Assembly (NCBI RefSeq): GCF_013410065.1
Contig: NZ_JACCCW010000001.1
Location: forward strand, 434,001 to 498,000
Origin: Granulicella arctica
Lineage (GTDB): Bacteria; Acidobacteriota; Terriglobia; Terriglobales; Acidobacteriaceae
Direction of reading: 5' to 3'
DNA: 64,000 bases
A program made the position numbers and the translations under genes. Shown here piece after piece: positions 3,604 through 25,378 of the stretch. Under the pieces are notes generated by a model. That model worked only from the letters and a program-made list of their open reading frames with translations. It searched no databases and was not told the DNA's origin. How positions within the stretch are numbered: position 1 is the stretch's first letter; each line of letters opens with the position of its first letter.

Positions 3604-3615
3604 CGTTTGCTCCCG

Positions 3616-6917: not shown

Positions 6918-7049
6918 GGACAAGACTCCTCAGAATGAAATAGATACCAGCACCGCTATCGAAGCTGCACGCCCACCAGCTTATCCACAAAAAACGAAGG
7001 TAGCATCCGCAGACGAAACTCTTCGATAAACGCGCATGGTAGGCAATCA

Positions 7050-7096
7050 TACGACGAACAACATATAGTGTCGTAGTCACTCCGAACTATATCGGA
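7050..7096. promoter_or_regulatory. Two inverted repeats in divergent intergenic region (candidate operators)
   Basis: Between the divergent starts at 6917 and 7142 are TACGAC (7050-7055) with GTCGTA (7070-7075), and TCCGA (7081-7085) with TCGGA (7092-7096). Two dyads in a shared 224-bp promoter region would suit a sugar-responsive repressor. No regulator gene lies next to them and the arms are short, so this is a weak call. Confidence 0.25.
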
Positions 7097-7141
7097 TCGT
7101 CTCCCCGGATAGTTCTCGACGGCACACTACACGGAGGAAGA

Positions 7142-8461: not shown

Positions 8462-8475
8462 CGCATAGGCCCCAA

Positions 8476-8511
8476 CAAGACAACGGCTACCGTGAGGTAG
8501 CCGTTGTCTTG
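8476..8511. terminator. Perfect 16-bp hairpin, bidirectional terminator
   Basis: CAAGACAACGGCTACC (8476-8491), loop GTGA, then the exact reverse complement (8496-8511). It lies between the convergent 7142 and 8487 genes. The GH35 stop codon and last codons lie inside the hairpin, so it must be tolerated as coding sequence. Uridine tracts are weak on both sides. Confidence 0.75.
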
Positions 8512-10328: not shown

Positions 10329-10390
10329 AAAATATTCGCTCCAAAGACCTCTTGAGTATATTGAATTTCCTGCTTGCGTATCTCCGTGGA

Positions 10391-11500
10391 TCACTGCGTA
10401 CCCGTCTGCGGCGGGGCCTTCATCAGCTCCACAAACAGCTTGTTGAACCTCGCCAGATCAAGGTCTACCTGCACATGCACAAGCTGCCGATCAATCGCAG
10501 GCCTGTTCGCCTCTGTCCACGTCAGCGTGTCGCCATAGGTTGGCCCGCGCGTCACGTCAACATCCACATACAGCTTCTCTTCCTTCGTGATAATCGCCGG
10601 ATCGAGCCACGCCGCCGCTGCCAACTCATCCCACAGATAATAAAACTCCCGCGTGTACTGAGCGAGATAGCGCGCCGCAGGCTGCGACGACGTCGCAATC
10701 TCCTCGAGCATCTGCTTCGTAAACTGCGTCTTGATCGAGATGTCCACCGCCGTCAGATCGATGCGCGGCCAACGCGCACGCAGCGTGATATGCGCCGCCT
10801 CAGGGTCGAACCAGAAATTAAACTCATGCCGAGGATTATTCGCAAACTCCGGATCGCTCGTCTGCGGGCTCAGGCTTCCACCCATGATGACGATGCCCTG
10901 CGTTAGCTCCGCAAACTCCGGATCAATCGAAATCGCCAGCGCAATATTCGTCAGCGGCCCCGCCGCATAGATCGTCACCTCATGCGGATGCGCACGAACC
11001 TGCCGGATCAAAAAGTGCGCAGCATCTTCGGTAGATGGCTTCGTCGCAGGCTCACCCTCTGCAAGCCGAGGCAGTACAAACGGGCCATGATACGGCTGCT
11101 GGCTGGTGTGCGCCGCCAGGTCGCCCCAAGCGCCATACCATGGGAGGCTCCCATACATCTTCCGCTCGAGCAGCGCCTCCTGCTCCGTGCGCACCAGAGG
11201 AAAGACCGCGCCCGGCACCACCGGCACATCGGTCCGGTGGATCAGTTCCAGCATGCGCAGCGTGTGCTGCACCTCCTCCGGCTCCCACGCATTGCCGCTC
11301 ACCATCGTGATGCCGAGCACCCGCACCTGTGGCGACTGCAACAACACCATCATCGCCATCTGGTTCGATCCCCCAGGTCCCGAACCATCCTGATCGATAA
11401 GAACAAGCCGTCGGGCAGGCGCAGACTGAGCACCCGCAACCGTTCCACCCAGGGCGCAAAACAACAACAGCAAACGAAGCGATATCAAATATCTGGACAT
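10391..11500 (-). CDS. Nucleoside hydrolase-family protein with altered metal motif, exported
   Basis: 369 aa from the ATG at 11500, 16 bp after the MFS stop; the longer frame to 11752 is Arg/Trp/Cys-rich noise. Signal peptide 1-24 (ending VAGAQ). The fold is the inosine-uridine-preferring nucleoside hydrolase family: QSPQVRVLGITMVSGN, IYAAGPLTNIALAI, GIVIMGGSL, and EFNFWFDPEAA with a conserved Asp. The canonical DxDxGxDD calcium loop is replaced by LIDQDGSGPGGSNQMAM, which keeps the first two Asp but loses the DD pair and is longer. The enzyme may hydrolyse nucleosides or a different N-/O-glycoside. Probably in an operon with MFS (11517-12773) and possibly GH35. Confidence 0.75.
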   Translation of the reverse strand: MSRYLISLRLLLLFCALGGTVAGAQSAPARRLVLIDQDGSGPGGSNQMAMMVLLQSPQVRVLGITMVSGNAWEPEEVQHTLRMLELIHRTDVPVVPGAVFPLVRTEQEALLERKMYGSLPWYGAWGDLAAHTSQQPYHGPFVLPRLAEGEPATKPSTEDAAHFLIRQVRAHPHEVTIYAAGPLTNIALAISIDPEFAELTQGIVIMGGSLSPQTSDPEFANNPRHEFNFWFDPEAAHITLRARWPRIDLTAVDISIKTQFTKQMLEEIATSSQPAARYLAQYTREFYYLWDELAAAAWLDPAIITKEEKLYVDVDVTRGPTYGDTLTWTEANRPAIDRQLVHVQVDLDLARFNKLFVELMKAPPQTGTQ

Positions 11501-11516
11501 GTGTCCGCCTAGACTA

Positions 11517-12773
11517 TCAGCTTGATCTGCTCGACAGGTCCGCACCCTTCTCCTCACGCCCAAGCAGTGCAACCACCGCCACCAGCAGCGCCACGATAAA
11601 CACCGTCGCCGACAGCACCACACGAAAGTTCCCTCCAAAGCGTGATGCCGCCAGCTTCGCCTGAAGCACGCCATTCCGCGAAGACAGCAGATTGCCAAGC
11701 TGATATGCCAGTCCCGGAAACGTTCCCCGCACCGGCGCAGGAGATAGCTCATTTAAATGCGCTGGAACTACCCCCCACGCGCCCTGCACCATAAACTGCA
11801 TCAGAAACGCGCCAACTGAGATCAGCACCACCGTATGCGACCACGCCCACAACGGAATCATAGGAATCGCCAGGAGTGAGGCGATCAGAATCGTCTTGCG
11901 ACGTCCCATCGTCTCCGACCAGGCTCCAAAACAGATGCCACCCAGCAGTGCTCCGACATTCCCGACACTCGTAATCAGCCCCGTCTCGCGCGGTCCAAAG
12001 GCATGGTTCTTCTCCAGAAACGTCGGATACAGATCCTGCGTCCCATGACTGAACGAAGCAAACGCCGTCATCAGCACAACAAGAAACAGAAACGTCGGTG
12101 CGTAGCTTCGCAGGTTCACCCACAACGAAGGCTTCGCCTCAAGAGCAGCCGCAACCGGCAACCCACCCTGCCTCTGCGCCTCCAGCCACGCCGGAGACTC
12201 CTCCACCCTCGACCGGATATACAACACCAGAAACGCCGGCACCGCCCCAATCAAAAACATCCCACGCCAGCCGACATACTGGAACACCAGCGCATACACG
12301 ATCCCCGCAATCAGGTTGCCGACAACATAACCCTCCTGCAACAGCCCGGAGAAGAACCCGCGCCCCTCCGCTGGCAGCGTCTCAAATGCCAGCGCCGCGC
12401 CCACGCCCCATTCGCCACCCATCGCAATCCCGAACAGCGCCCGAAAGATCAGCAGCATCTTCAACGAAGGAGCAAACGCCGAGGCAAGCTCAAACAGCGA
12501 ATAGCAGATGATGTTGATCATCAGCGTAGGCCGCCTACCATATTTGTCTGCCATCCGGCCAAACAGAAACGCCCCCACCGGTCGCATCGCCAGCGTCAAA
12601 AACAGCGCCTCCGCCACCTGCGTCACCTGCGTATGAAAGTCCTTGGCAATGGCGCTAACGCAGAAGACCAGGATGAAGTAATCGAACGCATCCAGCGACC
12701 AACCAAGAAAGCACGCAATGAATGCGTTGCGCTGCGATGCAGTAAGCCTGTGTATCTGTTCCGTGAACTTCAT
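11517..12773 (-). CDS. MFS sugar/organic-acid transporter (MHS/sialate-type)
   Basis: 418 aa with about 12 hydrophobic segments. The ATG at 12773 is used because GAGG lies 5 bases upstream; the in-frame GTG at 12779 falls inside that site. The MFS signature between TM2 and TM3 reads RPVGAFLFGRMADKYGRRP, and TM4/5 has FGIAMGGEWGVGAALAFE, close to metabolite:H+ symporters and NanT-like sialate carriers. A second, half-repeat signature appears as WSETMGRRKTIL. The downstream nucleoside hydrolase and beta-galactosidase suggest it imports one of their products, though the substrate cannot be fixed. Confidence 0.8.
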   Translation of the reverse strand: MKFTEQIHRLTASQRNAFIACFLGWSLDAFDYFILVFCVSAIAKDFHTQVTQVAEALFLTLAMRPVGAFLFGRMADKYGRRPTLMINIICYSLFELASAFAPSLKMLLIFRALFGIAMGGEWGVGAALAFETLPAEGRGFFSGLLQEGYVVGNLIAGIVYALVFQYVGWRGMFLIGAVPAFLVLYIRSRVEESPAWLEAQRQGGLPVAAALEAKPSLWVNLRSYAPTFLFLVVLMTAFASFSHGTQDLYPTFLEKNHAFGPRETGLITSVGNVGALLGGICFGAWSETMGRRKTILIASLLAIPMIPLWAWSHTVVLISVGAFLMQFMVQGAWGVVPAHLNELSPAPVRGTFPGLAYQLGNLLSSRNGVLQAKLAASRFGGNFRVVLSATVFIVALLVAVVALLGREEKGADLSSRSS

Positions 12774-12897
12774 CGGCACCTCGGTCTGTTTAAACTACAC
12801 CAGCAAGCAAGCGCGTCTATCCTGATACATAGGGCGCGTGTCTTCGTCGCAGATACTTAGCACGAATCCTACCGCACCCAATGAAGGAGCTTTCCGT

Positions 12898-13644
12898 TTG
12901 AAGATTCTTATACTCTCGCCGCACCGCGGAGACGCAGCATTCTCGCTCTCCCTCGCCCTCTTGCAATGGCTCAAAGCCGGTCACGCCGTCACCATCCTCA
13001 ACTGCTTCAGCCGCAGCCTGCACGCACCCTTCTCCGATGCGGAGTTCACCCACCCGAACGACCGCCTCTCCTATGTCTCCGCCATGCGCAAGCGCGAGGA
13101 CGAGGCCTTCCTCCGCCAACTCTCACCGACCCAATCCAACAAGCTCAAGATGATCGACCTCAATCTCAAAGACGCGCCTATCCGCCTGCAATGCACCGCG
13201 GACGAGTCCTTCGAAAGGCCTGTCAATCCCGAAGACCCGGCCATCGCCAAGATCCATAAGGGCATCACCCGCCTTCGCGAAGAGAGCAGCATCGACGCAC
13301 TCGTCCTTCCCCTTGGCCTCGGCAACCACGTCGACCATCGCACCGTCCGTGACGCAGCCCTGGCCTTCGCGGCCGAGCTTCCCTCCGCCTTCTACGAAGA
13401 TCTTCCCGACGCAACCCGCCCCGGCCATGCCGCCGAAGACCTCGCCGCCCAACTCTCCGAGCCGCTGTCCCCCGTCATCGTCACAGCACCGGCAGCCGTG
13501 GCAACCAAGCGCAAACTCATCTCAAAGTACGTCTCCCAGATCGACGATGAAATCCTCGAGGCCATCAGCACCTTCGCCACGCCCTACAACGGCGGCGAGC
13601 GCTTCTGGGCCAACCAGGCATGGCTCAATGCCACGTCCTCATAA
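12898..13644 (+). CDS. PIG-L/LmbE-family protein with substituted catalytic base
   Basis: 248 aa from a TTG at 12898 with AAGGAG 8 bases upstream. An in-frame GTG at 12838 would add 20 residues but has a poorer ribosome site. The fold is the zinc-dependent N-acetylglucosaminyl deacetylase family (MshB, BshB, LmbE). [13 protein letters not shown] takes the place of the AHPDDE loop, and [14 protein letters not shown] supplies the third zinc histidine. Compared with MshB, the zinc His and second Asp remain (H-x-x-D), but the first Asp, the general base, is Gly and the final Glu is Ala. It could have another activity or be a binding protein. It overlaps the convergent xfp gene by 6 bp. Confidence 0.65.
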
Positions 13645-16041
13645 CGGCCACTTCCAGTTACGAATCTCCGGCTTGTCGATCCCATTCTCGTGCGCGTAGT
13701 TAACACTCTCGATGATCTGATCTTTCAGCCATTCCTTCGTATGCGCGCCCTTCATCTGGAGCGAGGGAACCCTGTCGATCACATCGATCGCCAGGTTGAA
13801 CCGGTCCACCTGGTTCAGAATCGCTAGCTCCAGCGGCGTGTTGATGTTGCCCTTCTCCTTGTACCCGCGCACGTGAAAGTTGTCATGGTTCGTCCGCTTG
13901 TACGTCAGCTTATGGATCAGCGAAGCATACGCATGGAAGTTGAAGATGACCGGCTTGTCTTTCGTGAACAGGCTGTCGAACTCACGCTCCGACAACCCAT
14001 GCGGATGCTCGCTCTCCGGCATCAATCGAAAGAGATCGACGACATTGACGAAGCGGATCTTCAACTCCGGAATCCGCTCCCGCAAAATCGCCACCGCAGC
14101 CAACGACTCTGACGTCGGAATATCGCCCGCGCACGCCATCACTACATCCGGCTCCAATCTATCGTCATTGCTCGCCCAGCCCCAGATGCCGATCCCCTTC
14201 GTGCAATGCTTCACCGCCGCGTCCATATCGAGATACTGAAGATGCGGCGCCTTGTCCGCGACGATCACATTTACATAGTTCGTGCTGCGCAGACAATGAT
14301 CTGCCACGCTCAGCAAGCAGTTCGCATCCGGTGGAAGATAGATCCGTGTAACCTCCGGACTCTTATTCGTCACCACATCCAGAAAGCCCGGGTCCTGATG
14401 CGTAAATCCGTTGTGATCCTGCCGCCACACCAGCGAAGTAATCAACAGGTTGATCGACGAGATCGGCGCTCTCCATCGCAACTCCAACTTGCTCTTCTCC
14501 AACCACTTCGCATGCTGGTTGAACATCGAATCGATGATGTGCACGAATGCCTCATACGACGAAAAGAATCCGTGCCGCCCCGTAAGTACATACCCTTCGA
14601 ACCATCCCTCGAGCGTATGTTCGCTGAGCATCTCCATCACGCGCCCGTCTACCGAAAGCTCCGACCCATCCAGATCTTCCGGCAACTCCTTCGCCATCCA
14701 CGTCTTCTTGCTCGCCTCATAGATCGCCGTCAGCTTGTTCGACGCCGTCTCATCCGGCCCAAAGACCCGGAAGTTCGTCATGTTCTTCCGCATCACATCG
14801 CGCAGAAAATGTCCCAGCACATCTGTCGATGACACCTCAAAGTCCCCCGGCTTTTCCACCGGCACCGCATAGTCCTCGAACTCCGGCATCTCCAGCGGCT
14901 TCCGCAACAATCCGCCGTTCGCATGCGGATTCGCAGTGATCCGCCTAGCCCCCTGTGGCGCCATCTCCTGCAACTCCGTCCGCAGCGTTCCCTCCTCATC
15001 GAACAGCTCCTCCGGCTTGTAACTCCTCATCCACGCCTCAAGCTGCGCCAGATGCTTCGGGCTCGTCTGCGGATCGAGAATCGGAATCTGATGTGCCCGC
15101 CAGAACCCCTCCACCTTGTGCCCGTCCACCTCCTTCGGCCCAGTCCATCCCTTCGGAGTACGCAAAATGACCATCGGCCATCGCGGCCGCTCGAACGACC
15201 CCGTCTCCCGCGCCTGCCTCTGAATCGCCCGAATCTCCAGTACGCACTGCTCCAGCACTGTGGCCATCCTCTCGTGCATCAGCGTGGGATCGTCTCCCTC
15301 GACAACATACGGCTTCCACCCATAGCCTTTGAACAACTGGTCCAGCTCCTCCGGCGTAATGCGCGCAAGAATCGTCGGATTGGCAATTTTGTACCCATTC
15401 AAATGCAGCACCGGCAGCACCGCGCCATCGTGGATCGGGTTCAGAAATTTGTTCGCATGCCAGCTCGTCGCCAGCGGTCCCGTCTCCGCCTCGCCATCGC
15501 CCACCACCACCGTCACGATCAGATCCGGGTTGTCGAACGCCGCGCCAAACCCATGCGAAAGGCTGTACCCCAGCTCGCCGCCCTCATGGATTGACCCCGG
15601 CGTCTCCGGCGTACAGTGGCTCCCAATCCCTCCAGGAAACGAGAACTGCTTGAAGAATTTCTGCATCCCTGCTTCATCGCAGCTCTTATCCGGATACACC
15701 TCCGAATACACGCCCTCCATATAACTATTCGACAAAGTAGCCGGAGCTCCATGCCCCGGTCCCGAGACGTAAATCAAATTCAGGTCGTACTTCTTGATCA
15801 GACGATTCAGATGCACCCACGTAAAGCTCTGCCCCGGGTCCGATCCCCAATGCCCCAGCAACCGATTCTTGATGTGCTCCACCTTTAGCGGCTCACGCAG
15901 CAGCGGATTTGCCCGCAGGTACAGCATCCCCGCGCAAAGATAGTTGCACGCGCGCCAGTATGCATTCATCCGCCGTAACTCATCGCCTGTAAGGGTAGGC
16001 GCCATCGTCTCTGGTGCGGTCAGCGTTTCCAGTACGCTCAT
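13639..16041 (-). CDS. xfp: Xylulose-5-phosphate/fructose-6-phosphate phosphoketolase
   Basis: 800 aa, the usual length for this thiamine-diphosphate enzyme. It splits xylulose-5-P (or fructose-6-P) with phosphate into acetyl-P plus glyceraldehyde-3-P (or erythrose-4-P). Clear motifs include [49 protein letters not shown] (ThDP/Mg site), [10 protein letters not shown], the central [13 protein letters not shown] and the late [24 protein letters not shown] lies 6 bases before the ATG. The gene follows acetate kinase by 50 bp on the same strand, so acetyl-P made here can be turned directly into acetate and ATP. Confidence 0.96.
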
Positions 16042-16091: not shown

Positions 16092-17291
16092 TCACGATCC
16101 CGATCGGGACAACCGCGCAACGTGCCGCGCAATCATCAAATCCTCTTCCGCTGGCACCACATAAACCGCCGTAGCGGAACCCTCCATGCTCACCCGCCGC
16201 AATCCGTCTTTCTTCTTCGCATTGCAGCCCGCATCCAGTGAGATGCCCAGCGGCTCCAATCCTGCCAAAATCTCTGCCCTCGATGCAGCATCATGCTCCC
16301 CAATGCCCCCCGCAAACACGACAGCCTCCAGCCCGCCCGTCAGCGCCAGATAGCTCCCGATCGTCTTCTTCACACTTCGCGTAAAGATCCGCAACGCCAA
16401 CCTCGCCCGTTCATCGCCCTTCTCCGCCGCGTCACGCACCTCGCGCATATCGCCCGAGATCCCCGAAAGCGCAGCCAGCCCCGATGAGTGGTTCAACATC
16501 TTCTCCACCGCATCCGTATCGTTTCCACTCTGCCGCAGCAGATAGAGCACCAACCCCGGATCGAGATCTCCCGGCCGAGTCGCCATCACAATCCCACCCG
16601 TCGGCGTCAGTCCCATCGACGTATCGACCGATCTCCCATCGACCAGCGCCGTCACACTGCACCCTCCGCCCAGATGTGCAATTACCATCCTGTGGGGAAA
16701 CGGAACTGCCGCCTCCCGCAACTGCATCACAATCGACTCGCACGAAAGCCCATGAAACCCATATCGCCGCACACCCCGCTCCGCATACTCCGCAGGCAGC
16801 GGATAAGCCGTCGCCTCCGGCGGCATCGTCTCGTGAAAGACCGTATCGAAACAAGCGAAGTGCCCAGCCGCTGGAAACCGCCCCCGCATAGCCTCAATAA
16901 TCTTCACCACCTCAGGATCATGCAGCGGAGCAAAATCCGCCGCCCGCCGCAGCTCCATCATCACCCTATCTGTGATCCGCTGATGCTCATGCAGCAGAGC
17001 CCCAGGATGCACCACGCGATACCCAATCGCCTCAACCTTCGGCACCTCCGGTCCGCTCACCGCCCGAGCCACAAACTCGATCGCATCCTCCATCGACGCG
17101 ATCCGGGCCTTGCCGCCCGGCGCCTCGTGCGCGATGTCATGCCCTTCCGCATCCCGAAAGCCGAACTTCGGCTCCGATCCGCCAATCCCGCTCACCTCGC
17201 CCTCAAACAGCGAGCGAGGCGCGCCAGCCTCCGCGTAGAAGAAAGAAAACTTGATCGACGAAGATCCGCTGTTGATCACCAATATCTGCAT
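16092..17291 (-). CDS. ackA: Acetate kinase
   Basis: 399 aa from the ATG at 17291, which places the conserved MQILVINSGSSSIKF at the N-terminus; a start at 17318 would add nine unconserved residues. Other family motifs are the RYGFHGLS phosphate region, HLGGGCSVTAL, DTSMGLTPTGG, RPGDLDPGLVLYLL and FAGGIGEHDA. It converts acetyl-P and ADP to acetate and ATP in the cytosol. First gene of an ackA-xfp unit and divergent from the ubiquitin-like operon, with 149 bp between the starts. Confidence 0.95.
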   Translation of the reverse strand: MQILVINSGSSSIKFSFFYAEAGAPRSLFEGEVSGIGGSEPKFGFRDAEGHDIAHEAPGGKARIASMEDAIEFVARAVSGPEVPKVEAIGYRVVHPGALLHEHQRITDRVMMELRRAADFAPLHDPEVVKIIEAMRGRFPAAGHFACFDTVFHETMPPEATAYPLPAEYAERGVRRYGFHGLSCESIVMQLREAAVPFPHRMVIAHLGGGCSVTALVDGRSVDTSMGLTPTGGIVMATRPGDLDPGLVLYLLRQSGNDTDAVEKMLNHSSGLAALSGISGDMREVRDAAEKGDERARLALRIFTRSVKKTIGSYLALTGGLEAVVFAGGIGEHDAASRAEILAGLEPLGISLDAGCNAKKKDGLRRVSMEGSATAVYVVPAEEDLMIARHVARLSRSGS

Positions 17292-17370
17292 CTTCCCGAT
17301 AGGAGAGCGAATCGGCACCTTTCAGTTGCTCCAGATACCGGATTGTCACAAAACGCAACGCCCCAGCGTC

Positions 17371-17399
17371 TTGCACCCCACCCGCCAATCCGCTATAAC
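17371..17399 (+). promoter_or_regulatory. Candidate sigma-70 promoter of the ubiquitin-like operon
   Basis: TTGCAC (17371-17376), a 17-base spacer, then TATAAC (17394-17399). A transcript would begin near 17406, about 35 bases before the protease ATG at 17441. It is the only good match I saw in the ackA/protease intergenic region. Confidence 0.5.
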
Positions 17400-17440: not shown

Positions 17441-18508
17441 ATGTCGACCCAGAAGGTGATCGTCAGCGGTTATGAAGCCAGCCAGGTTCCCGAAGCGACG
17501 ACGACGCCCGGCAGCTCCCCACAACCCACGCCGCGTCTCTCTCCGGCCATTCCCTGGTGGGCGCGGATCGGTCTTAGCCTCGTAGCCCTCTGCTTTCCGC
17601 TCCTCTGCCTCATCACACTTGTCCTCCGCATCGCCTTCCGCGCCGAAACCCCGCGGATCAAATACGCCTGGACCAGCTTCCTCAACACCCTCCTGATGGT
17701 CAGCGGCCTGCTCACGCTCGTCGCCGGAAGCTTCGTCTTCTTTCTAGCTCCCGTCCCCGTCATCACCGGCTCCGGCCTCACCGACCTCGACGAGCGCGAC
17801 AGCTTCCCCGCACTCCCCTCCGCGACGTCGCTCACCAGCGTCGACGCCTCGCGCCTCCTGAAGCCCCTCGTCATCGTCGTCTCCCCCGCCGCCACCCGCC
17901 TCTGGACCAACGCCGAGGTCCCCTCCAACAGCTTCGGTGCAGGCGAGCTCCTGCACGCCGACAAAGACGGCTACCTCTTCGTCACCGCCCGCCACGTCGC
18001 GCAGCTCCCGCAGTCTGGTTTCGGCCTCAAACCCTCCCACGTCCTTATCTCTACACAGGAAGGCACCTGGGGCACCGCCGATATCATCGCCACTGCCGAC
18101 TCCCTCGACCTCGCACTCCTCTGGCTCCCTCGCCACACCGGCTCGCTCACCTTCACCCAGCCCCTCACCACCATCAGCGACGGAGCTGCCGTCTTCGTTA
18201 TCGGTCACCCTGAGGGCCTCCGCTACACCCTCTCCACCGGCATCGTCTCCGGCTTCCACGATCAGTCCATCCAAATCTCCGCCGCCATCAGCCCCGGCAA
18301 CAGCGGTGGCCCGGTCTACGACGATCACGGCAACCTGGCCGGTATCGTCAGCTCCAAGTTCGACCACAATCAGGACGCCAACGCCGAGAACCTCAGCTTC
18401 GCCGTCAAACCCGCCGCCCTGCTCACCCCCGACGTCTGGCACTTCTCCAAGGGCGGTCGCGTGCATCTACAGCACTATGTAGATGCACTCAAATCCTCAA
18501 GCAAGTAA
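17441..18508 (+). CDS. Membrane-anchored trypsin-like (S1) serine protease of the ubiquitin-like operon
   Basis: 355 aa from the ATG at 17441; an in-frame GTG at 17420 would add 7 residues. A Pro/Thr-rich N-terminus is followed by two hydrophobic segments (about 42-64 and 84-105). A chymotrypsin-fold protease domain (about 140-340) has H185 in VTARHVA, D223 in SLDLALLWL and S288 in SPGNSGGPV, a complete triad, plus IGHPEGL and GIVSSKF typical of HtrA/DegP-like trypsins. No PDZ domain follows. With two TM segments the protease should face the same side as the N-terminus; the loop between them is basic, which favours an outward-facing protease, but this is uncertain. First gene of the operon, 15 bp before the ubiquitin-like gene. 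It may cleave targets or process operon partners. Confidence 0.85.
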   Translation: MSTQKVIVSGYEASQVPEATTTPGSSPQPTPRLSPAIPWWARIGLSLVALCFPLLCLITLVLRIAFRAETPRIKYAWTSFLNTLLMVSGLLTLVAGSFVFFLAPVPVITGSGLTDLDERDSFPALPSATSLTSVDASRLLKPLVIVVSPAATRLWTNAEVPSNSFGAGELLHADKDGYLFVTARHVAQLPQSGFGLKPSHVLISTQEGTWGTADIIATADSLDLALLWLPRHTGSLTFTQPLTTISDGAAVFVIGHPEGLRYTLSTGIVSGFHDQSIQISAAISPGNSGGPVYDDHGNLAGIVSSKFDHNQDANAENLSFAVKPAALLTPDVWHFSKGGRVHLQHYVDALKSSSK

Positions 18509-18523
18509 CCTCAGGAAACCCTT

Positions 18524-18793
18524 ATGGCCACTCTCAACGTCACCGTCTACGACTCCACCGAAAACAAGCGCGTTCCCGCCGAGCTGCCCGACGACGCTCC
18601 CTGCAACAAGATCGTCGCCGTACTCGTGCAGAAGCTCCAGCTCCCCACCAACGGACCCGACGGCGCGCCCCTCAGCTACAAGTTCCACCACAAGAACTCC
18701 GGCCGCCAGATTCAGGACTCCCAAACCCTCGCCGACGCAGGCGTCAAAGATGGCGACATCCTCCGCCTTCAGCCTGAGATCACCGCAGGCTAG
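18524..18793 (+). CDS. Ubiquitin-like beta-grasp protein (YukD/EsaB-like)
   Basis: 89 aa, preceded by AGGA about 7 bases before the ATG. The length and pattern match a ubiquitin fold: beta strand TLNVTVYDST, a helix around CNKIVAVLVQKLQL, strands at LSYKFHHKNSG, and the ubiquitin-type end LADAGVKDGDILRLQPEI, where 'L.daGv.dGD.l.l' is the YukD/ubiquitin hallmark. The protein ends ..ITAG, so its last residue is a glycine without a tail; adenylation by the adjacent E1 would need no prior trimming. There is no GlyGly pair as in ubiquitin, ThiS or MoaD. The E1 start codon follows after one base, implying translational coupling and a partner relation. Confidence 0.85.
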   Translation: MATLNVTVYDSTENKRVPAELPDDAPCNKIVAVLVQKLQLPTNGPDGAPLSYKFHHKNSGRQIQDSQTLADAGVKDGDILRLQPEITAG

Positions 18794-18794
18794 T

Positions 18795-20006
18795 ATGTCC
18801 AGCCAGCCCATCCAAGTCGCCGCCGAGCTGGAAGAAGACCGCTACAGCCGCCTGCGCCTCATTCCCTGGTGGGATCAGGATAAAATCCACTCCACCCGCG
18901 TCCTCGTCATCGGAGCCGGAGCCCTCGGTAACGAGATTCTAAAAAACCTGGCCCTCCTCGGTTTCCTCCACATCGTGGTAGTGGATCTCGACCAAATCGA
19001 GGTCACCAACCTCTCCCGCGCCATCCTCTTCTCCTCCGACTCCATCGGCCAATACAAAGCCACAGTCGTCGCCGACGCCTACCGCAAGCTCCTCCCCGAA
19101 GCCATCGTCACTCCCATCGCCGCCAACATCCTCCACTCCCTCGGCCTCGGTGTCTTCCTGTGGAGCGACCTCATCCTCGCCGGTCTCGACAACCGCGAAG
19201 CCCGCCTCTTCATCAACCGCGCCGCCTGGAAGAGCAATCGCCCCTGGATCGACGGCGCCATCGAAGGCATCAACGGCGTAGCCCGTGTCTTCCTCCCCGG
19301 CCAACCGCCCTGCTACGAGTGCACCCTCGGTGCCACCGATTGGGCCCTCCTCGAGAAGCGCATGTCCTGCAACCTCCTCCTGCACGAAGCCGACACCGCC
19401 GGCAAAGTCCCCACCACCCCCACCATCTCTTCGATCATCGCTGGCATCCAGACGCAGGAGGCCCTCAAGCTCGTCCACCATCTCCCCACGCTCGCCGGAC
19501 AAGGCGTCGTCTTCGAAGGCCTCCACCACACCTCCTACAAGGTCGACTACACCGAGAGCCCCGACTGTCTCAGCCACTACACCTTCGACCGCATCGTATC
19601 CCTCGAGCAGAAATCCTCCGAGCTAACTCTCGCTGACCTCCTCGCCCTCGCTAAAGAAGACCTCAACACCATCGAAGCCGTCCTCGAGTTCAGCCGCGAG
19701 ATCATCCACAAGCTCATCTGTCCCAACTGCCACGCCGAAGAGACCGTCTTCGCTCCCGTAGGCTCCCTCACCTACCATCAAGGCCGCTGCAACGTCTGCA
19801 CCACCCCGCGCATCGTCCAAACCCTTTCCGGCTTTCATGGCCAGGAAGACCTTGCCACCCTCAAGCTAGACCAACTCGGCCTCCCCCTCTACGACCTCTA
19901 CACCGCCCGCAGCACCGAAGACGGAAGAGAAGACGAGCTAGCCTACCTCATCGCCGGAGACGCCCCCGCCATCCTCGGCCCCAACGCACCCCCGGAGGCC
20001 GCATGA
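18795..20006 (+). CDS. E1-like ThiF/MoeB-family adenylating enzyme with zinc ribbon
   Basis: 403 aa from the ATG at 18795, one base after the modifier's stop; the open frame extends further upstream but only through the modifier gene. The Rossmann ATP site reads VLVIGAGALGNEILKNLAL (36-54), then VVVDLDQIEVTNLSRAILF (61-79) with the Asp and Arg expected of E1 enzymes, AGLDNREARLFINRAA (129-144), and SSIIAGIQTQEALKLVH (212-228), the crossover helix region. C173/C176 (CYEC), C309/C312 (CPNC) and C332/C335 (CNVC) suggest zinc sites; C192 (RMSCN) is a candidate thioester cysteine. The C-terminal 140 residues are not a UBL-recruiting domain I recognise. It would adenylate the C-terminal Gly of the 18524-18793 product. 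Confidence 0.88.
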   Translation: MSSQPIQVAAELEEDRYSRLRLIPWWDQDKIHSTRVLVIGAGALGNEILKNLALLGFLHIVVVDLDQIEVTNLSRAILFSSDSIGQYKATVVADAYRKLLPEAIVTPIAANILHSLGLGVFLWSDLILAGLDNREARLFINRAAWKSNRPWIDGAIEGINGVARVFLPGQPPCYECTLGATDWALLEKRMSCNLLLHEADTAGKVPTTPTISSIIAGIQTQEALKLVHHLPTLAGQGVVFEGLHHTSYKVDYTESPDCLSHYTFDRIVSLEQKSSELTLADLLALAKEDLNTIEAVLEFSREIIHKLICPNCHAEETVFAPVGSLTYHQGRCNVCTTPRIVQTLSGFHGQEDLATLKLDQLGLPLYDLYTARSTEDGREDELAYLIAGDAPAILGPNAPPEAA

Positions 20007-20908
20007 CCCAGCCCGCCAAGCCCTCCATCCAGATCGACGCCGAGGTCACCCGCCAGATCCGCCAGCACGCCCGCTCCAGCATGGCCACCGAGGTCTGCGG
20101 CGTCCTCATCGGCGATCTTCTCCCCGGCTCCGAGACAGACGTAGCCATCTTTGCCGCCATCGCCGGAGTCAACGCCGCCCAGGCCGGAACCCACGTCACC
20201 TTCACCCAGGACGCCTGGGAGCACATCTACAAGGTCAAAGACGCCGACTACCCCGACGCCCGCATCGTCGGCTGGTACCACTCCCATCCTGGCTTCGGCG
20301 TCTTCCTCTCCGAGCACGATACCTTCATCCAGCAGAACTTCTTCTCCGCGCCCAACCAGGTCGCCTGGGTCTTCGATCCCCACAGCGACGAGGAGGGCTG
20401 CTTCGGTTGGGTCGACGGCAACATCACTCGCCTCACCTCCATCAACCTCATCGATCGCGATACCCCCGCCAACGTCTCCGAAAGCCGAGACCTAACCCCC
20501 TCCGAAGATCTCGATCTCGACGCTGACTCCGATACCCTCGCCACACGCCGCACCGCACCACCCCCACGCTGGCTCCGTTGGAGCGCCACCGCCTCCGCCC
20601 TGCTCGCCACGTTGATCCTCGGCTTTGCTCTCTCGCACTTCCTCTTTCCGTCGCCCTACCTCCTCGCGCTGCCCATCAACCCGCTCACCGCCCAGCCTCT
20701 CCTCCGCGACCCCAAAACCGGCGATCCTGTCTACATAGACCCCCAGGGCCCACGCTACGTCACCCTCGATTCGCGCACTGGCAAACTAACCGTACTCGAT
20801 CCGAACGCCCTCCGCGCTGCCCAACCCCCCACAGCCCTTGCCCCAGATCAAGCCCCGCAGCCGCCCGCCACACCGGACAAGACCCCACCGGCACAGGAGA
20901 AAAAATGA
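20003..20908 (+). CDS. Membrane-anchored JAB/JAMM isopeptidase
   Basis: 301 aa; the ATG overlaps the E1 stop (ATGA). The N-terminal JAB1/MPN/Mov34 domain (about 8-150) has a complete JAMM zinc site: E30 (TEVCGVLIG), H93 and H95 (GWYHSHPGFG), S103 and D106 (FLSEHD). Such enzymes remove ubiquitin or ubiquitin-like proteins from targets, or trim the modifier. An acidic linker (DLDLDADSD) leads to one TM segment (about 194-216) and an 85-residue Pro-rich tail containing DPKTGDPVYIDPQGPRYV. The JAB domain should be cytosolic with the tail outside. A single-pass JAB is uncommon and puts deconjugation at the membrane, like its neighbours. Confidence 0.9.
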   Translation: MTQPAKPSIQIDAEVTRQIRQHARSSMATEVCGVLIGDLLPGSETDVAIFAAIAGVNAAQAGTHVTFTQDAWEHIYKVKDADYPDARIVGWYHSHPGFGVFLSEHDTFIQQNFFSAPNQVAWVFDPHSDEEGCFGWVDGNITRLTSINLIDRDTPANVSESRDLTPSEDLDLDADSDTLATRRTAPPPRWLRWSATASALLATLILGFALSHFLFPSPYLLALPINPLTAQPLLRDPKTGDPVYIDPQGPRYVTLDSRTGKLTVLDPNALRAAQPPTALAPDQAPQPPATPDKTPPAQEKK

Positions 20909-21987
20909 GCTATCCGAACCCCGATCTCCTTCGCGTCACCCTCGACGATCTGGACGCCGTCACCCTCCCCACCCAGACCGCTCTCGCTCCCGCCGTCTCC
21001 AGCACCGGAGCCACCATCTACGGCACCATCAACGATATGCCCGACGCCCCTTTGCTCCCCGAAGAGAAGGGAAGCATCTGGCTCCAGGGCTGGCTCTACC
21101 TCGGCACCGCCGGTCTCGTCGGAGCCATGCTCGGCTGGGCCATCTGCGAGCCTGCCTTCCTCGACAACGGCGGCGGAGCCCATCGCTGGGGCAACATCTG
21201 GCTCCTCCCCCTTATCGTCGCCTGCATGTGCATCGCCTTCGGTACTGCCGAAAGCGTAGTCGAGCGCTCCCTCCGCAAGGGCCTCATCCGATCCGGCATC
21301 GCCCTTCCCCTCGGCATCGTCTTCGGCTTCGTCTTCTACTTCATCGCGAACATTATCTACAGCATCGGCATGGGTCTCGTCGCCGCCACCGGTGCGCAGA
21401 CCATGCACAATCCCGCCTTCTGGATCGCCCGCGGCATCGCCTGGGCCGCCTTCGGAGCCGCCGGGGGCCTCGTCTACGGCATCATCGGCCAGTCCGGACG
21501 CAAAGCCGGATACGGCGCACTCGGCGGAGCCATCGGTGCTCTCCTCGGCGGCCTCCTCTTCGATCCCATCGCCTTCCTTTTGGACAAGCACGCCGCAGCC
21601 TCCGCCCATAGTGGAGCGCCCAGCCGCGCCATCGGCTTCGCCCTCCTCGGCCTCGCCACCGGCATCGCCATGGGCCTCGTCGAGTCCGCACTCAAAGACC
21701 GCTGGCTCTACGTCACCGCCGGGCCCCTCGCCGGCAAACAGTTCATCCTCTATAAGCCCTCCACCATCCTCGGCTCCAACCAGCAGGCGGATATCTACCT
21801 CTTCAAGGACGCCGACATCCTCCCCTCTCACGCCACCCTCCAGCTCAAGGGCTCCCGCATCCACGTCATCCCCAACGGCCCCGTCTACATCGGAGCCACT
21901 CCCCTGCGTGCCCCCCGCGTCCTCCAGACCGGCGACGACCTCCGCATCGGCCGCTACGGCTTCCGCTACCAGGAGAAACAGCGGTGA
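20905..21987 (+). CDS. Multi-TM protein with C-terminal FHA domain
   Basis: 360 aa; the start overlaps the JAB stop (ATGA). About 57 polar residues precede five or six hydrophobic segments (roughly 60-80, 97-115, 130-155, 170-195, 203-225, 242-262), several rich in Gly/Ala (GALGGAIGALLGGLLF). A forkhead-associated-like domain spans 265-360: KPSTILGSNQQADI, LPSHATLQL with S308/H309, and DDLRIGRYGF. The usual phosphothreonine-binding Arg of the 'GR' turn is Ser (LGSN), and the SRxH motif is PSHA, so phosphopeptide binding may be altered. FHA next to E1/JAB/RING genes suggests recruitment of the modification system to a phosphorylated membrane partner. No kinase is in the window. Confidence 0.8.
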   Translation: MSYPNPDLLRVTLDDLDAVTLPTQTALAPAVSSTGATIYGTINDMPDAPLLPEEKGSIWLQGWLYLGTAGLVGAMLGWAICEPAFLDNGGGAHRWGNIWLLPLIVACMCIAFGTAESVVERSLRKGLIRSGIALPLGIVFGFVFYFIANIIYSIGMGLVAATGAQTMHNPAFWIARGIAWAAFGAAGGLVYGIIGQSGRKAGYGALGGAIGALLGGLLFDPIAFLLDKHAAASAHSGAPSRAIGFALLGLATGIAMGLVESALKDRWLYVTAGPLAGKQFILYKPSTILGSNQQADIYLFKDADILPSHATLQLKGSRIHVIPNGPVYIGATPLRAPRVLQTGDDLRIGRYGFRYQEKQR

Positions 21988-22580
21988 GCGAAACCATCTG
22001 CCCCTACTGCCGCTCCCCCTTCGAACCGGAAGACGCAGTCCACCGCTGCCCCGCCTGCGGAACCCCGCACCACGCCGATTGCTTCGCCGAGAACGGCGGC
22101 TGCACCATCTTCGGCTGCACCGCCGCCCCCGCCGAAGAAGCTCCCATCAGCGTCACCCCCACCGACCTCACCCCATCCCCGCCCGCTGTCAGCAATAGCA
22201 TCTACAACTTCGGCTCTTCCGCCACACCAGAAACACCTCAGCTTCCCGCAGTCGCTCCACCCCCACCCCTTCCCGCAGGCAGCTCCGCTCCACCACCTCC
22301 ACCGCTCCTCGCGTACCAACCCTACGCCATGCCTCCCGCCAACCCCTACGCCGACATCAGCTACATCCGGCCTAAGAGCCGCGTCGTCTTCGTCCTCCTC
22401 GCCGTCTTCTTCGGAGCCTTTGGCGCCCACAACTTCTACGCCGGTTACAACAAGAAGGCCGTCATCCAGCTCTGCATCACCCTCTGCACCTGTTTTTATG
22501 CATCGCTCATCAGTTGGATTTGGGCTATCGTAGAAGCCTGTACCGTCACCGCAGACGATGACGGAGTCCAGCTAACCTAA
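21984..22580 (+). CDS. RING-like zinc finger plus TM2-domain membrane protein
   Basis: 198 aa; starts with GTG overlapping the FHA stop (GTGA). Residues 6-45 form a compact treble-clef-like cluster: C6/C9, C22/C25, H29/H30, C33, C40 and C45 (CPYC, CPACG, HHADC, C, C). This is the pattern of the prokaryotic RING family and of eukaryotic E3 RING fingers. A Pro-rich linker (50-125) joins it to a TM2 domain (129-190, KSRVVFVLLA, FGAFGAHNFYAGY), a two-helix membrane module. It could be a membrane E3-like scaffold bringing E1-modifier to substrates. Zinc-ribbon function without ligase activity is the alternative. Confidence 0.8.
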   Translation: MSETICPYCRSPFEPEDAVHRCPACGTPHHADCFAENGGCTIFGCTAAPAEEAPISVTPTDLTPSPPAVSNSIYNFGSSATPETPQLPAVAPPPPLPAGSSAPPPPPLLAYQPYAMPPANPYADISYIRPKSRVVFVLLAVFFGAFGAHNFYAGYNKKAVIQLCITLCTCFYASLISWIWAIVEACTVTADDDGVQLT

Positions 22581-22599
22581 TCCCCTTCAGGAGAAAGTC

Positions 22600-23280
22600 T
22601 TGACCTATACGATCTCGCGCGATGGCCAGGAGTTCGGCCCCTATTCTCTCTCCGACGTCCAGCGCTACGTCGGCACCGGCAATATCCTCCTCACCGACCT
22701 CGCCCGCGCCGAAGGCACCACCGAGTGGCTTCCCGTCGCGCAGGTCGTCGGCACCATCGCCGTCGCCCCAGCCGCAGTCCCCACCGCCGCCTACGCAGCG
22801 CCCACCACCCAGTATCCTGACCCACCCAACCTGCACTGGGCGCTCGTCCTGCTCATCGGCATCTTCACCTGCGGCCTCTTCATGATTATCTGGGACCTCA
22901 TTCAGGCGTTATGGATCAAGAAAGTCCAGCCCGACACCAAGGCGCTTACGTACTACCTCATCTTCCTTGGCTTCTGGATTCTCAATTTGGTCTGCTCCTT
23001 TGGGCGTATAGCCTTTCCCATGAGCTACCGTCTCGCGAATCACGTGGCCGCGCCCCTGGCTGGCCTATCCTTGCTCGTCTCGCTTGCAGTCCTGGTCCTG
23101 ATGATCGTCTACCGCTTCGTCATGCGCAGCTCCCTCGAACGGCACTTCAATACCGCCGAGCCCGTCGGTCTCACGCTCGGCCCTATCATGACCTTCTTCT
23201 TCGGCGACCTCTACTTCCAGTACCACTTCAACCGCATCAACGAGATCAAACGCGCCGCCGGCCTCACCCGCCCCTACTAG
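22600..23280 (+). CDS. GYF_2-domain multi-TM protein
   Basis: 226 aa from a TTG at 22600 with AGGAGAAAG just upstream, 19 bp after the RING gene. Residues 2-52 (YTISRDGQEFGPYSLSDV and TTEWLPVAQVV) match the GYF_2 (DUF4339) module, with GPYS and the conserved Trp W43, thought to bind peptides such as proline-rich tails. An Ala/Pro linker and four hydrophobic segments (about 79-105, 116-132, 150-171, 190-203) follow, then a conserved-looking end FGDLYFQYHFNRINEIKR. The RING protein's Pro-rich linker and the JAB Pro-rich tail are natural candidate ligands of the GYF module (inference). Last gene of the operon. Confidence 0.8.
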   Translation: MTYTISRDGQEFGPYSLSDVQRYVGTGNILLTDLARAEGTTEWLPVAQVVGTIAVAPAAVPTAAYAAPTTQYPDPPNLHWALVLLIGIFTCGLFMIIWDLIQALWIKKVQPDTKALTYYLIFLGFWILNLVCSFGRIAFPMSYRLANHVAAPLAGLSLLVSLAVLVLMIVYRFVMRSSLERHFNTAEPVGLTLGPIMTFFFGDLYFQYHFNRINEIKRAAGLTRPY

Positions 23281-23347
23281 GTGTTGCACTTGGAACTTGA
23301 ATCCACCTATTCGGACATCACTCTCTCTGTGTGAAGATGCCGTAGGC

Positions 23348-25150
23348 TTACTTTTTGTCCGGGGATGGGGTTACTCCGTTGCCTTCGGTGACGGTGTAGA
23401 TGGCGTCGATGCCGGGGAGGGTGACGGTTTCTTTGGTGCCGCTGGGCCACTGGATTTCGATCTTGTCGATGTGGGTTGCGGGGCCTAGGCCGAAGTGGAG
23501 GCGGGGATCAGAGGTGGAGGCGAAGCTGCCGCCGCTGATGACATCGCCGCGTTGACGGAAGCCGTTGGCGGTGACGTATACGGTTGCGCCGACGGCATCC
23601 CTGGGGCTTTTGGGGCCACCGATGAGCTTGAGTGCTACCCAGTGGTTGGTGATCTTGACGACATTGCGGAAGAGGGATGGCGTGCCGTCGAGGTTGTTGA
23701 CGACTAGATCGATTTTGCCGTCGTTGAAGAGGTCTCCGAAGGCGACTCCACGGGCTACGGCTAGCTTGGCCAGGGCTGTTCCTTCGACGGCGGGAACGAG
23801 GCCGAACTTCCCGTTGTTGTTTCGGAAGAGGAGCGCGCGCTGTTTGAAGGTGGTGCCCCAGTTGGCGGTGTCGGCCTGCGGATAGACGTGGCCGTTGGCG
23901 ACGAAGAGGTCGAGCCAGCCGTCGTTGTCGTAGTCGAGGAAGACGGTTCCCCAGCCGAGGAAGGGGATGGTCGGTTCGGCGATTCCCATTTGGTAGCTTA
24001 CGTCGGTGAAGTTGGCGTTGCCGTCGTTGCGGTAGAGGGGGTTGTAGTCGTCGGAGAAGGTGGTGTTGTAGAGGTCGATGAGGCCGTTGTGGGCGTAGTC
24101 GCCGGAGGCTATGCCCATGGAGGCGGTCTCGCGGCCGCTTTCGTTGAGGGCGTAACCGGAGGCGAAGCTGGCGTCCTCGAAGGTGCCATTGCCCTTGTTG
24201 AGATAGAGGTAGTTGGGGGTGGAGTCGTCGGCGACGAGGAGGTCGGGCTTGCCATCGCCGTTGAGGTCGATGAAGAGGGAGGCGAGGCCGTAGTAGGCGG
24301 ACTTGTCGGCGACGCCGGCCTTCTCGCTGACGTCGGTGAAGGTGCCGTCTCCGTTGTTGTGGAAGAGATGGTCGACTTCGCCGGGGAGGCCGCGGGGGCC
24401 ACACATGACGTTCTGGCCGCGGAACTGGCAGGTCTTCGGAGGCTGATGGTGCAGGTCGTATTTGACGTAGCCGGGAACGAAGAGGTCGAGGCGGCCGTCG
24501 CCGTCGTAGTCTCCCCAGGTGGCTCCGGTGGACCAGGCGCCGACGGTGATGCCGGCTTTTTCGCCGACGTCGGTGAAGGTGCCGTCGTGATTGTTGTGAT
24601 AGAGCCGGTTCTTGCCGAGGTTTGAGACGAAGATGTCGGGCCAGCCGTCGTTATCGTAGTCAGCGATGGCGGTGGCGAAGCCCCAGCGATCGTTGGTGAC
24701 GCCTGCTTTGGCAGCTACGTCGGTGAAGGTGCCGTCGTGGTTGTTGTGGAAGAGCGCGGCGTGCGGCGGGGTGGCCTTGCCGTTCTCCGCGTCGAAGGTG
24801 GAACCGTTGACGAGATAGATGTCGAGCCAGCCGTCGTTGTCGTAGTCGATGAGGCCGACGCCGGAGCCTACGGTCTCGATGATGTAGGTCTTCTCCGGGG
24901 TTCCCATGATGTGATGCCACTTGGTGAGGCCGGCTTGCTCGGCGGTGTCCTGAAAGATGATGGGGCCGGTTTTGACGAAGCCACCTGCGGTGATGGGACG
25001 GTTCTCGGAGTCGAGTATCGCGGCGTGTGCTCCGCCGGTGTTGCTGCCCATGCCGGATGGCTCGGGCTGAGGCTGCTGCGCGTGCGCTGCGAGAGCGAAG
25101 AGCGCGGCTGTCAGGAGATACGCAGCAGTTCGGGGTAGTGCTTGCTTCAT
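23348..25150 (-). CDS. CRTAC1-family secreted FG-GAP/ASPIC-UnbV protein
   Basis: 600 aa from the ATG at 25150, chosen because it gives a signal peptide (MKQALPRTAAYLL.. ending AHAQ). In-frame ATGs at 25162 and 25318 are possible; no start has a strong ribosome site. The body is a beta-propeller of FG-GAP/VCBS repeats, each with Ca-binding loops such as DYDNDGWLDIYLVN, and LFHNNHDGTFTDV units. The C-terminal ASPIC/UnbV domain (RLHFGLGPATHIDKIEIQWPSG cut here to its core) closes it. Such proteins are abundant in Acidobacteriota and Planctomycetes; their function is mostly unknown, with proposed extracellular binding roles. Its upstream region carries the REP-like repeat at 25224-25277. Confidence 0.85.
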   Translation of the reverse strand: MKQALPRTAAYLLTAALFALAAHAQQPQPEPSGMGSNTGGAHAAILDSENRPITAGGFVKTGPIIFQDTAEQAGLTKWHHIMGTPEKTYIIETVGSGVGLIDYDNDGWLDIYLVNGSTFDAENGKATPPHAALFHNNHDGTFTDVAAKAGVTNDRWGFATAIADYDNDGWPDIFVSNLGKNRLYHNNHDGTFTDVGEKAGITVGAWSTGATWGDYDGDGRLDLFVPGYVKYDLHHQPPKTCQFRGQNVMCGPRGLPGEVDHLFHNNGDGTFTDVSEKAGVADKSAYYGLASLFIDLNGDGKPDLLVADDSTPNYLYLNKGNGTFEDASFASGYALNESGRETASMGIASGDYAHNGLIDLYNTTFSDDYNPLYRNDGNANFTDVSYQMGIAEPTIPFLGWGTVFLDYDNDGWLDLFVANGHVYPQADTANWGTTFKQRALLFRNNNGKFGLVPAVEGTALAKLAVARGVAFGDLFNDGKIDLVVNNLDGTPSLFRNVVKITNHWVALKLIGGPKSPRDAVGATVYVTANGFRQRGDVISGGSFASTSDPRLHFGLGPATHIDKIEIQWPSGTKETVTLPGIDAIYTVTEGNGVTPSPDKK

Positions 25151-25223
25151 ATGTCTAAACATCTGCCCACAACTGAGGGACGTTCTGGTTATGGGGCGAT
25201 GAGTGTGCACACATATTCCTTTA

Positions 25224-25277
25224 GGGGCTAAAGCCCCGCTTCTTTTTAACTCTTTACGGCACGGCTGAAGCCGTGCC
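25224..25277. repeat. REP-like pair of short palindromes
   Basis: GGGGCTAAAGCCCC (25224-25237) and GGCACGGCTGAAGCCGTGCC (25258-25277), separated by a T-rich 20-base spacer. Both are near-perfect hairpins with two-base loops. From memory, such paired GGGGCT and GGCACGGCT palindromes recur in acidobacterial and other soil-bacterial genomes as dispersed repeats; only this copy was seen here. It lies 74-127 bases upstream of the CRTAC1 start. Confidence 0.6.
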
Positions 25278-25378
25278 CTTCCAAAACATTTCTTATAGGC
25301 ACTGTTCACCCTGCTCATACAGCGCAGCTCAGGACTGAATCTTCGGCGGGATCAGTGTAAATGTTTCTTGCAATACAA

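Follow-up and report, generated by a model that had tools for sequence, protein, structure and literature searches.

Could a bacterium attach a ubiquitin-like protein to other proteins at its inner membrane? The question is raised by a tight run of seven genes in Granulicella arctica (Acidobacteriota; RefSeq assembly GCF_013410065.1), within a stretch of 64,000 nucleotides (contig NZ_JACCCW010000001.1, positions 434,001 to 498,000) that we call the window. The original prediction, made from the letters of this stretch, described the run as a membrane-linked operon for a ubiquitin-like modifier (Ubl). That remains the best reading, and sequence comparisons make it probable that the genes specify an E1-E2-RING-JAB pathway of Ubl conjugation assembled at the inner membrane. 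The earlier interpretation is nevertheless only partly supported, since it lacked an eighth gene, encoding an E2, which lies outside the window after an inversion. The seven-gene set was incomplete without this E2, the component that best decides between conjugation and sulfur transfer.

An eight-gene unit split by an inversion

All seven open reading frames (genes A to G; the eighth gene is the E2) are present on the forward strand at 17441 to 23280. Their coordinates, order, and domains are as first described, with each protein carrying its assigned domain above the Pfam cut-off. The junctions also agree with that description: adjacent genes overlap by 4 bp at C-D, D-E, and E-F and are separated by 15 bp at A-B, 1 bp at B-C, and 19 bp at F-G. 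We took ATG 18795 as the E1 start because the mechanical start, giving 507 amino acids (aa), would run into the Ubl gene. Transmembrane (TM) segments were called from hydropathy.

17371 to 17399, + strand: candidate promoter TTGCAC-N17-TATAAC, found by eye, 41 bp before the first start codon
17441 to 18508, + strand: gene A, two-TM S1 protease (trypsin-2, HtrA/MarP-like; Pfam Trypsin_2, 6e-19)
18524 to 18793, + strand: gene B, YukD-type Ubl of 89 aa ending in ITAG (Pfam YukD, 2.5e-15)
18795 to 20006, + strand: gene C, E1 of 403 aa with one ThiF-type adenylation domain (Pfam ThiF, 2e-47)
20003 to 20908, + strand: gene D, JAB/JAMM isopeptidase with one predicted TM segment (Pfam JAB, 5e-14)
20905 to 21987, + strand: gene E, predicted polytopic membrane protein with a C-terminal FHA domain (Pfam FHA, 1.9e-5)
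21984 to 22580, + strand: gene F, N-terminal Prok-RING_1, proline-rich linker, and TM2 (Pfam Prok-RING_1, 3e-11; TM2, 3e-14)
22600 to 23280, + strand: gene G, N-terminal GYF_2 followed by about three predicted TM segments (Pfam GYF_2, 8e-8)
23281 to 23347, no strand: inversion breakpoint, at the gene G/E2 junction of the relatives (comparison with relatives)
C1:405304-405879, - strand: detached, intact E2 of the window genome, outside the window and 47 kb from the Ubl gene

Collecting neighborhoods with all seven families, a check proposed with the original prediction, bore the arrangement out. Close loci were found in 14 relatives, and in all 12 whose contigs extend past gene G, the order and strand of genes A to G are identical; a chance arrangement is excluded because the seven genes recur in this way. 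Protease, Ubl, E1, and JAB genes follow one another in all 15 close loci, including that of L082, where only 0.1 kb of contig remains beyond the JAB gene. In L086 the protease and GYF genes, and in L088 the E1 gene, are each distributed over more than one frame, owing either to draft assembly or to gene breakage.

In the same 12 relatives, the E2 gene comes after gene G on the same strand. The E2 exceeded the UQ_con Pfam cut-off in the window genome and in the two relatives scanned, and its PDB matches include UBE2B and UBE2C. A His-Pro-Asn motif and Cys96 are invariant in 13 of 13 sequences, and 9 of 13 E2 tails have a DPW motif close to their end. Among 300 genomes of the family, 19 encode the E2 and 20 the Ubl, with 18 common to both (Fisher P = 1e-25, a statistic that ignores relatedness). 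The mismatches, one genome with only the E2 and two with only the Ubl, are all in assemblies of 550 to 850 contigs. E2 and Ubl genes lie 4.6 to 5.4 kb apart in 16 of the 18 genomes, on separate contigs in one, and 47 kb apart in the window genome.

Comparison with a same-genus genome (G407) accounts for this last distance. The interval from 396.5 to 405.88 kb of the window genome runs parallel to 1566.7 to 1575.77 kb of G407, whereas 414.0 to 457.28 kb is reversed relative to 1610.7 to 1575.775 kb. One of the breakpoints falls precisely at the junction of gene G and the E2. Therefore, an inversion split the eight-gene unit in the window genome. No blastn counterpart of 405.9 to 413.9 kb or of the sequence to the right of 457.28 kb was found in the stretch from 1537 to 1642 kb of G407. 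Ratios of nonsynonymous to synonymous substitution against G407 were 0.16 for E2, 0.24 for E1, 0.34 for the RING protein, and 0.07 for Ubl, and the detached E2 has thus remained under purifying selection.

Paralogous UnbV/ASPIC-like repeat genes, recognized by eye, adjoin both breakpoints (window 23348 to 25318 and L075:7979-9736), and a third UnbV-like copy lies further right in the opposite orientation. The pair share 39 to 60% protein identity, have nearly no DNA match, and point in the same direction. An inversion by recombination between these genes is thus not supported.

Conserved parts of a candidate conjugation pathway

The Ubl is a single 89-aa domain (Pfam) and the most conserved of the eight proteins. 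Over the same 55 pairs from 11 of the 15 loci, mean identity was 87.1% for Ubl, 69.1% for E2, 63.4% for E1, 57.6% for FHA, 49.7% for JAB, 48.2% for the protease, 47.4% for RING, and 44.1% for GYF; truncated starts (RING of L084, GYF of L033 and L036) and, in the L080 E1, 23 letters beginning at the stop may slightly distort the values for these genes. Differences at fourfold sites in the 11 loci were 0.59 to 0.67 across all eight genes. We rejected recent horizontal spread as the cause of the Ubl identity because these sites have diverged to a similar extent in every gene. Across 10 of these genomes, Ubl averaged 86.9% identity and ribosomal protein S8 74.3% (S8 was not found in the eleventh genome, which is 77% complete).

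All 15 close Ubls and all 3 distant ones have the C-terminal Gly89, and short tails extend beyond it in 4 of the 15 and in all three distant ones; tailed endings in the relatives include TAGAR and TAGAAREN. It is preceded by Ala, or by Gly in one distant copy. Residues 59 to 82 were placed on the end of the ubiquitin fold by Pfam and by the PDB search (ubiquitin 46 to 69 in the latter), and Gly89 aligns with ubiquitin Gly76 if this register is extended without gaps. At one locus (L089 of G408, 3469 to 3744), a second, diverged Ubl-like reading frame directly precedes the normal Ubl; it is 43% identical, ends in Gly-Pro, and contains one ambiguous base.

The top PDB match of the E1 profile is UBA3, the catalytic subunit of the NEDD8 E1 (1.5e-35, versus 1.8e-20 for MoeB), and UBA3, UBA2, and UBA1 rank far above MoeB and ThiF. 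It differs from UBA3 in that the operon has no separate APPBP1-like partner gene and the C-terminal region of the E1 has a zinc-ribbon-like insert. Cys192 is invariant in the 13 E1s aligned (all loci except L080 and L088) and is conserved in four diverged E1s, as are the Cys/His pairs C173/C176 and C258/H261. We regard Cys192 as a candidate thioester Cys; its spacing after the CxxC pair resembles that of the UBA3 catalytic Cys. The C-terminal region is perhaps a UFD with a zinc-ribbon insert, although the match behind its register with UBA3 was nonsignificant.

Hydropathy predicts 2 TM segments for the protease, 4 to 6 for the FHA protein, 1 or 2 for the RING protein, and 2 to 4 for the GYF protein (L086 protease and GYF fragments set apart), and a segment after the JAB domain in 14 of 15 loci (none in L089). 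The Ubl and the E2 have no predicted segment, whereas the adenylation domain of five E1s has one or two stretches that also exceed the threshold. The JAMM motif (E30, H93, H95, S103, D106) is invariant in the 13 JAB sequences aligned (L080 and L086 left out). The protease gene precedes the Ubl gene in the window and all 14 relatives, and its triad (H185, D223, S288) is invariant in the 14 sequences aligned, those of the window and 13 relatives (L086 left out). No PDZ domain was found in the gene A protease, and its nearest NCBIfam models are DegP/DegS, none above the cut-off.

In the FHA domain of gene E, measured against the phosphothreonine-binding core that we take as reference (GR...S-(R/N)-x-H), the His is kept in 13 of 13 aligned sequences, the Arg of GR in 2, and the phosphothreonine Ser and Arg/Asn in none. 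The original prediction had suggested signaling as one possible role; with these pocket residues missing, phospho-signaling through the FHA domain is not supported. The RING zinc ligands (C6, C9, C22, C25, H29/H30, C33, C40, C45) are invariant in 12 of 12 aligned sequences and, by eye, in L084. A single-sequence model of the RING reached a predicted local distance difference test score (pLDDT) of 77 to 87 across residues 1 to 40; VIA and Foldseek fold matches of this model do not separate RING from PHD. The linker behind the RING is 16 to 29% Pro, and 11 of 13 sequences have stretches of at least three consecutive prolines there. GYF domains bind proline-rich peptides, and a contact between the GYF and RING proteins is therefore a natural hypothesis. 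At L036 (11967 to 13190) and L088 (4926 to 5639), the GYF_2 membrane gene has additional copies in tandem, placed between gene G and the E2.

We postulate the following sequence of events. The UBA3-like E1 would activate the Ubl at Gly89, by adenylation and then as a thioester on Cys192, and the Ubl would pass to Cys96 of the E2, which in the window genome is encoded in trans 47 kb away. Transfer to membrane or membrane-proximal proteins may follow, for which the TM-anchored RING protein would act as the ligase or recruit the E2, and the membrane-anchored JAB would trim tailed precursors where present and remove the tag. Proline-rich stretches in the RING protein and in the E2 tail are the probable binding sites of the GYF_2 protein, which would in this way hold the complex together. 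The FHA protein would be a structural membrane partner and not a classical phosphothreonine reader, and the two-TM S1 protease may act across the membrane or on tag-marked proteins. Such a pathway could serve in membrane protein control or stress signaling. The sequences themselves establish which parts are present and in what order, their shared inheritance, the conserved residues, the constraint on the Ubl, and the inversion; conjugation, topology, the GYF-proline contact, targets, and role are inferred from these.

Several observations weigh against this reading. In the window genome, the E2 is outside the operon. The Ubl ends in Ala-Gly, which is less usual than Gly-Gly; its Pfam ubiquitin match (E 0.001) is below the cut-off, and the PDB search gave no significant single-domain match to ubiquitin. 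When only the window genome and G407 are compared, S8 exceeds Ubl in conservation (98.4 versus 96.6). The UFD and thioester-Cys assignments come from a register with UBA3 and not from a significant match, and the single-sequence E1 prediction, with a mean pLDDT of 31, is unusable. For the RING model, Foldseek ranks PHD fingers first (E values from 0.058 upward). Active RING E3s presumably have an Arg/Lys linchpin after the last zinc ligand; no such residue is conserved here, a basic residue at +1/+2 after C45 being present in 3 of 13 sequences (L033, L034, and L087) and not in that of the window. Membrane topology is taken from hydropathy, the FHA domain is without its pocket residues, and L089 has no FHA-gene match in the 0.85 kb between the JAB gene and the end of its contig. 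Finally, a housekeeping role is made less likely by the sparse occurrence of the Ubl, in 20 of 300 family genomes.

Distribution, neighboring genes, and distant loci

At the level of the class, a Ubl of 77 to 100% identity was found in 15 of 399 genomes, and a close E1 in 5 of 151 sampled class genomes, including the window genome. A phylum sample of 247 genomes contained close Ubls only in the window genome and one genome of the same family, and five others at 31 to 37%. Within the genus, the window genome and G407 encode the Ubl, and at least 20 other genomes do not.

Flanking gene families are rarely common to different loci (none in more than 3 of 13, same-genus pairs apart). The candidate promoter sits in the gap to a divergent gene at 16092 to 17318, which by eye encodes an acetate kinase. 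The motif is conserved in G407, where its flanking sequence has diverged, but a consensus scan gave 0 matches at the threshold (0.9 expected), and the claim that the run stands behind one candidate promoter is weak. By eye, the neighbors in the window look metabolic (acetate kinase, phosphoketolase, glycosidases). Ten neighbor proteins from six other loci, out of 59 listed, include a glycoside hydrolase, TetR, an IS110 transposase, HtrA, and a mechanosensitive channel. There is no defense system among these 10, only the protease-domain similarity of one HtrA-like protein, and we therefore rejected a defense island. At L034 (G135), an AAA ATPase gene (13251 to 14321; PF00004, 4e-32) directly follows the E2; this family is not common to the other loci.

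Viral contigs held no match to the E1 and plasmids none to the Ubl. Phages gave six partial, weak matches to the E1, with no close relative among them, and plasmids gave a single E1 match of 32%, on a Crinalium plasmid. There (NC_019754 of Crinalium epipsammum, L099, 6001 to 9478), genes for an E1, two small proteins, an E2, and Mov34/JAB stand directly before a conjugative-transfer gene. A scan of genome contigs with a single E1 query found one 31% match, a Nitrosospira locus, and so no relative of the close kind.

More distant loci hold E1, Ubl, E2, and JAB genes, either as a compact set of four (G107) or together with RING-like, TM-JAB, vWA, or FHA membrane genes (G518, G346). The minimal operon, from the same family (L037 of G107, 7265 to 9728), has the order E1-Ubl-E2-JAB and a Ubl ending in GGLR; it lies about 1.5 kb before a gene that by eye resembles TssK of a type VI secretion system. 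At L091 (G518, 8939 to 14642), a Ubl operon includes genes for a TM zinc-finger protein, for two JAB proteins, one with a TM segment by eye, and for a TM and repeat protein that carries a fused YukD-like domain. The window genome itself has a second, very different Ubl locus 0.7 Mb away (L103, C1:1143000-1160000, 5875 to 13827), with genes for an E1, a Ubl-like protein, an E2, a zinc-finger TM protein, a Ser/Thr kinase, an FHA-TM protein, and a vWA-TM protein. Its Ubl-like protein has 86 aa, ends in Asn-Gly, and has no Pfam match; the Prok-RING match of the zinc-finger protein and the match of the FHA-TM protein are below the cut-off. A VgrG-like gene (by eye) adjoins this locus.

Known systems and rival explanations

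Burroughs, Iyer, and Aravind (2011, Mol BioSyst) reportedly proposed conjugation of YukD-like Ubls by operons whose components are Ubl, E1, E2, RING, and JAB. Here we found a YukD-like Ubl with a C-terminal Gly, an E1 with a conserved candidate catalytic Cys, an E2 gene adjacent in 12 of 12 relatives, a C4HC3 prokaryotic RING with a long gap in the last pair, and a JAMM peptidase. The component list matches the one reported for those operons, which are cited in PMC4197634. Beyond that list, the conserved eight-gene unit has genes for the FHA membrane protein, the GYF_2 membrane protein, and the two-TM S1 protease, and in the window genome, the E2 has been detached by inversion.

The passage on such operons in PMC4197634 (2014), citing Burroughs 2011, states that Actinobacteria, Planctomycetes, and Acidobacteria carry relatives of the Caldiarchaeum operon and describes these as uncharacterized and sporadic, with close relatives often lacking them. 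Acidobacterial Ubl operons of this type are thus already in print, in line with the view in the original prediction that such neighborhoods were known; the same account of the Acidobacteria operons does not mention FHA, GYF, or S1-protease partners. On bacteria in general, the relevant part of PMC5654768, citing Koonin and Yutin 2014, refers to some complete operons, and that of PMC4327156 to no complete toolkit in the bacteria analyzed there. Among titles and abstracts of an open-access library, no paper treated FHA, GYF, JAB, and YukD together with a Ubl. Nor did the open-access literature, a scope outside which most subscription journals and all preprints fall, yield an experimental test of bacterial YukD-RING tagging.

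As described in PMC5654768, the operon of Caldiarchaeum subterraneum likewise has Ub, E1, E2, RING, and JAMM in one cluster, with a tailed precursor trimmed by the JAMM protein, but it is archaeal, with a RING-H2 and Gly-Gly, whereas the window system has an Ala-Gly Ubl, a C4HC3 RING, and predicted TM segments on the RING and JAB proteins. C4HC3 prokaryotic RINGs are described in PMC11354881, in part of which the Bil (BilABCD) systems, brought up in the original prediction, are given the same quartet of Ubl, E1, E2, and JAMM. We rejected membership in Bil on three features: the Ubl is a single 89-aa domain and not a two-domain (ISG15-like) protein; the E1 has one ThiF domain in 403 aa instead of the inactive and active adenylation domains of a pseudodimer; and the E2 is of the HPN-Cys and not the CEHH type, with no such His pattern after Cys96 among the invariant columns. 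The window system also has RING and membrane genes in addition. The tri-ligase Ubl module of the FtsH ternary vWA-MoxR conflict systems, as outlined in PMC7159879, shares JAB, E1, prokaryotic RING, an E2 domain, and a Ubl. However, there the Ubl and E2 are in one EAD1-carrying protein, accompanied by vWA, MoxR, and a caspase-like effector, and none of EAD1, vWA, MoxR, or such an effector is among the eight genes.

How do the rival explanations fare? The same conjugation chemistry could serve in defense against phages, as in Bil/Bub or CBASS. The patchy distribution would fit, as would the partial PADLOC similarity of the E1 (E1-E2, 2.5e-16; BilD, 4.5e-8), JAB (1.9e-6), and protease (RT-Protease_XI, 5e-11). 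However, PADLOC had no match for Ubl, RING, FHA, GYF, or E2; the window neighbors look metabolic, and the 10 neighbors at six other loci included no defense system; viral contigs, phages, and plasmids gave no close relative of the E1, nor plasmids one of the Ubl; and a Ubl this constrained would be unlike an arms-race gene. We regard a defense role as unlikely. Still less probable, in our view, is a degradation tag, by which marked membrane or secreted proteins would be destroyed by the operon's S1 protease and cytosolic machines. The constant place of the protease gene before the Ubl gene and the intact triad speak for it, but the protease domain is probably across the membrane from the Ubl machinery, the conserved unit has no unfoldase, and the genome has only one proteasome-family gene, probably HslV.

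A sulfur carrier, in which the E1 would make a Ubl thiocarboxylate, the Ubl would donate sulfur, and JAB would trim the Ubl, is very unlikely. A ThiF/MoeB-type E1, a small Ubl, and JAB do also make up sulfur-metabolism-linked operons, according to the relevant section of PMC1779556, and the E1 here is single-domain. Set against this are the coinherited E2 and Prok-RING, the strong conservation of the Ubl, the TM segments on the JAB and RING proteins, and the lack of a rhodanese or cysteine synthase domain (Pfam) in the seven proteins. The possibility that the E1 is a sulfur-carrier enzyme only, on which the original prediction would have fallen, is made unlikely by the co-occurring E2, by the invariant Cys192, placed as in UBA3, and by the invariant Gly with its tails; given the E2, we rejected it. 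Hardly credible is a YukD that is an unconjugated structural part of a type VII-like membrane export complex, with E1, JAB, and RING as bystanders. Among NCBIfam models, EccD comes nearest to the Ubl (21 bits, cut-off 95), the setting is a membrane one, and Bacillus YukD is cited in the same section of PMC1779556 as not conjugated. Opposed to it are the coinheritance of E1, E2, and JAB, the invariant Gly with tails, and a conserved unit without an FtsK-type ATPase. Type VII secretion was rejected because its WXG100 substrate was absent from the window genome at E 0.001, in a search that found the Bacillus subtilis control.

Inner-membrane conjugation by the E1, E2, RING, and JAB thus remains our preferred explanation. 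We also entertain a bolder version of it, which we hold to be doubtful: a complete bacterial ubiquitin pathway in the inner membrane, with a modifier under ubiquitin-grade constraint, a ligase complex held together by a GYF domain that would read the proline-rich linker of the RING protein within the same complex, and a polytopic FHA protein and two-TM S1 protease through which the tag signal would cross the membrane to periplasmic proteolysis. Constraint of that grade would imply many readers or targets. With eight parts defined, four relatives with tailed Ubls, and the window strain as a natural two-locus version, bacterial YukD-RING tagging becomes testable. Anchoring at the membrane suggests a function that may be absent from soluble systems, and a Ubl whose mean conservation exceeds that of S8, with fast-changing partners around it, is a bacterial repeat of the eukaryotic ubiquitin pattern.

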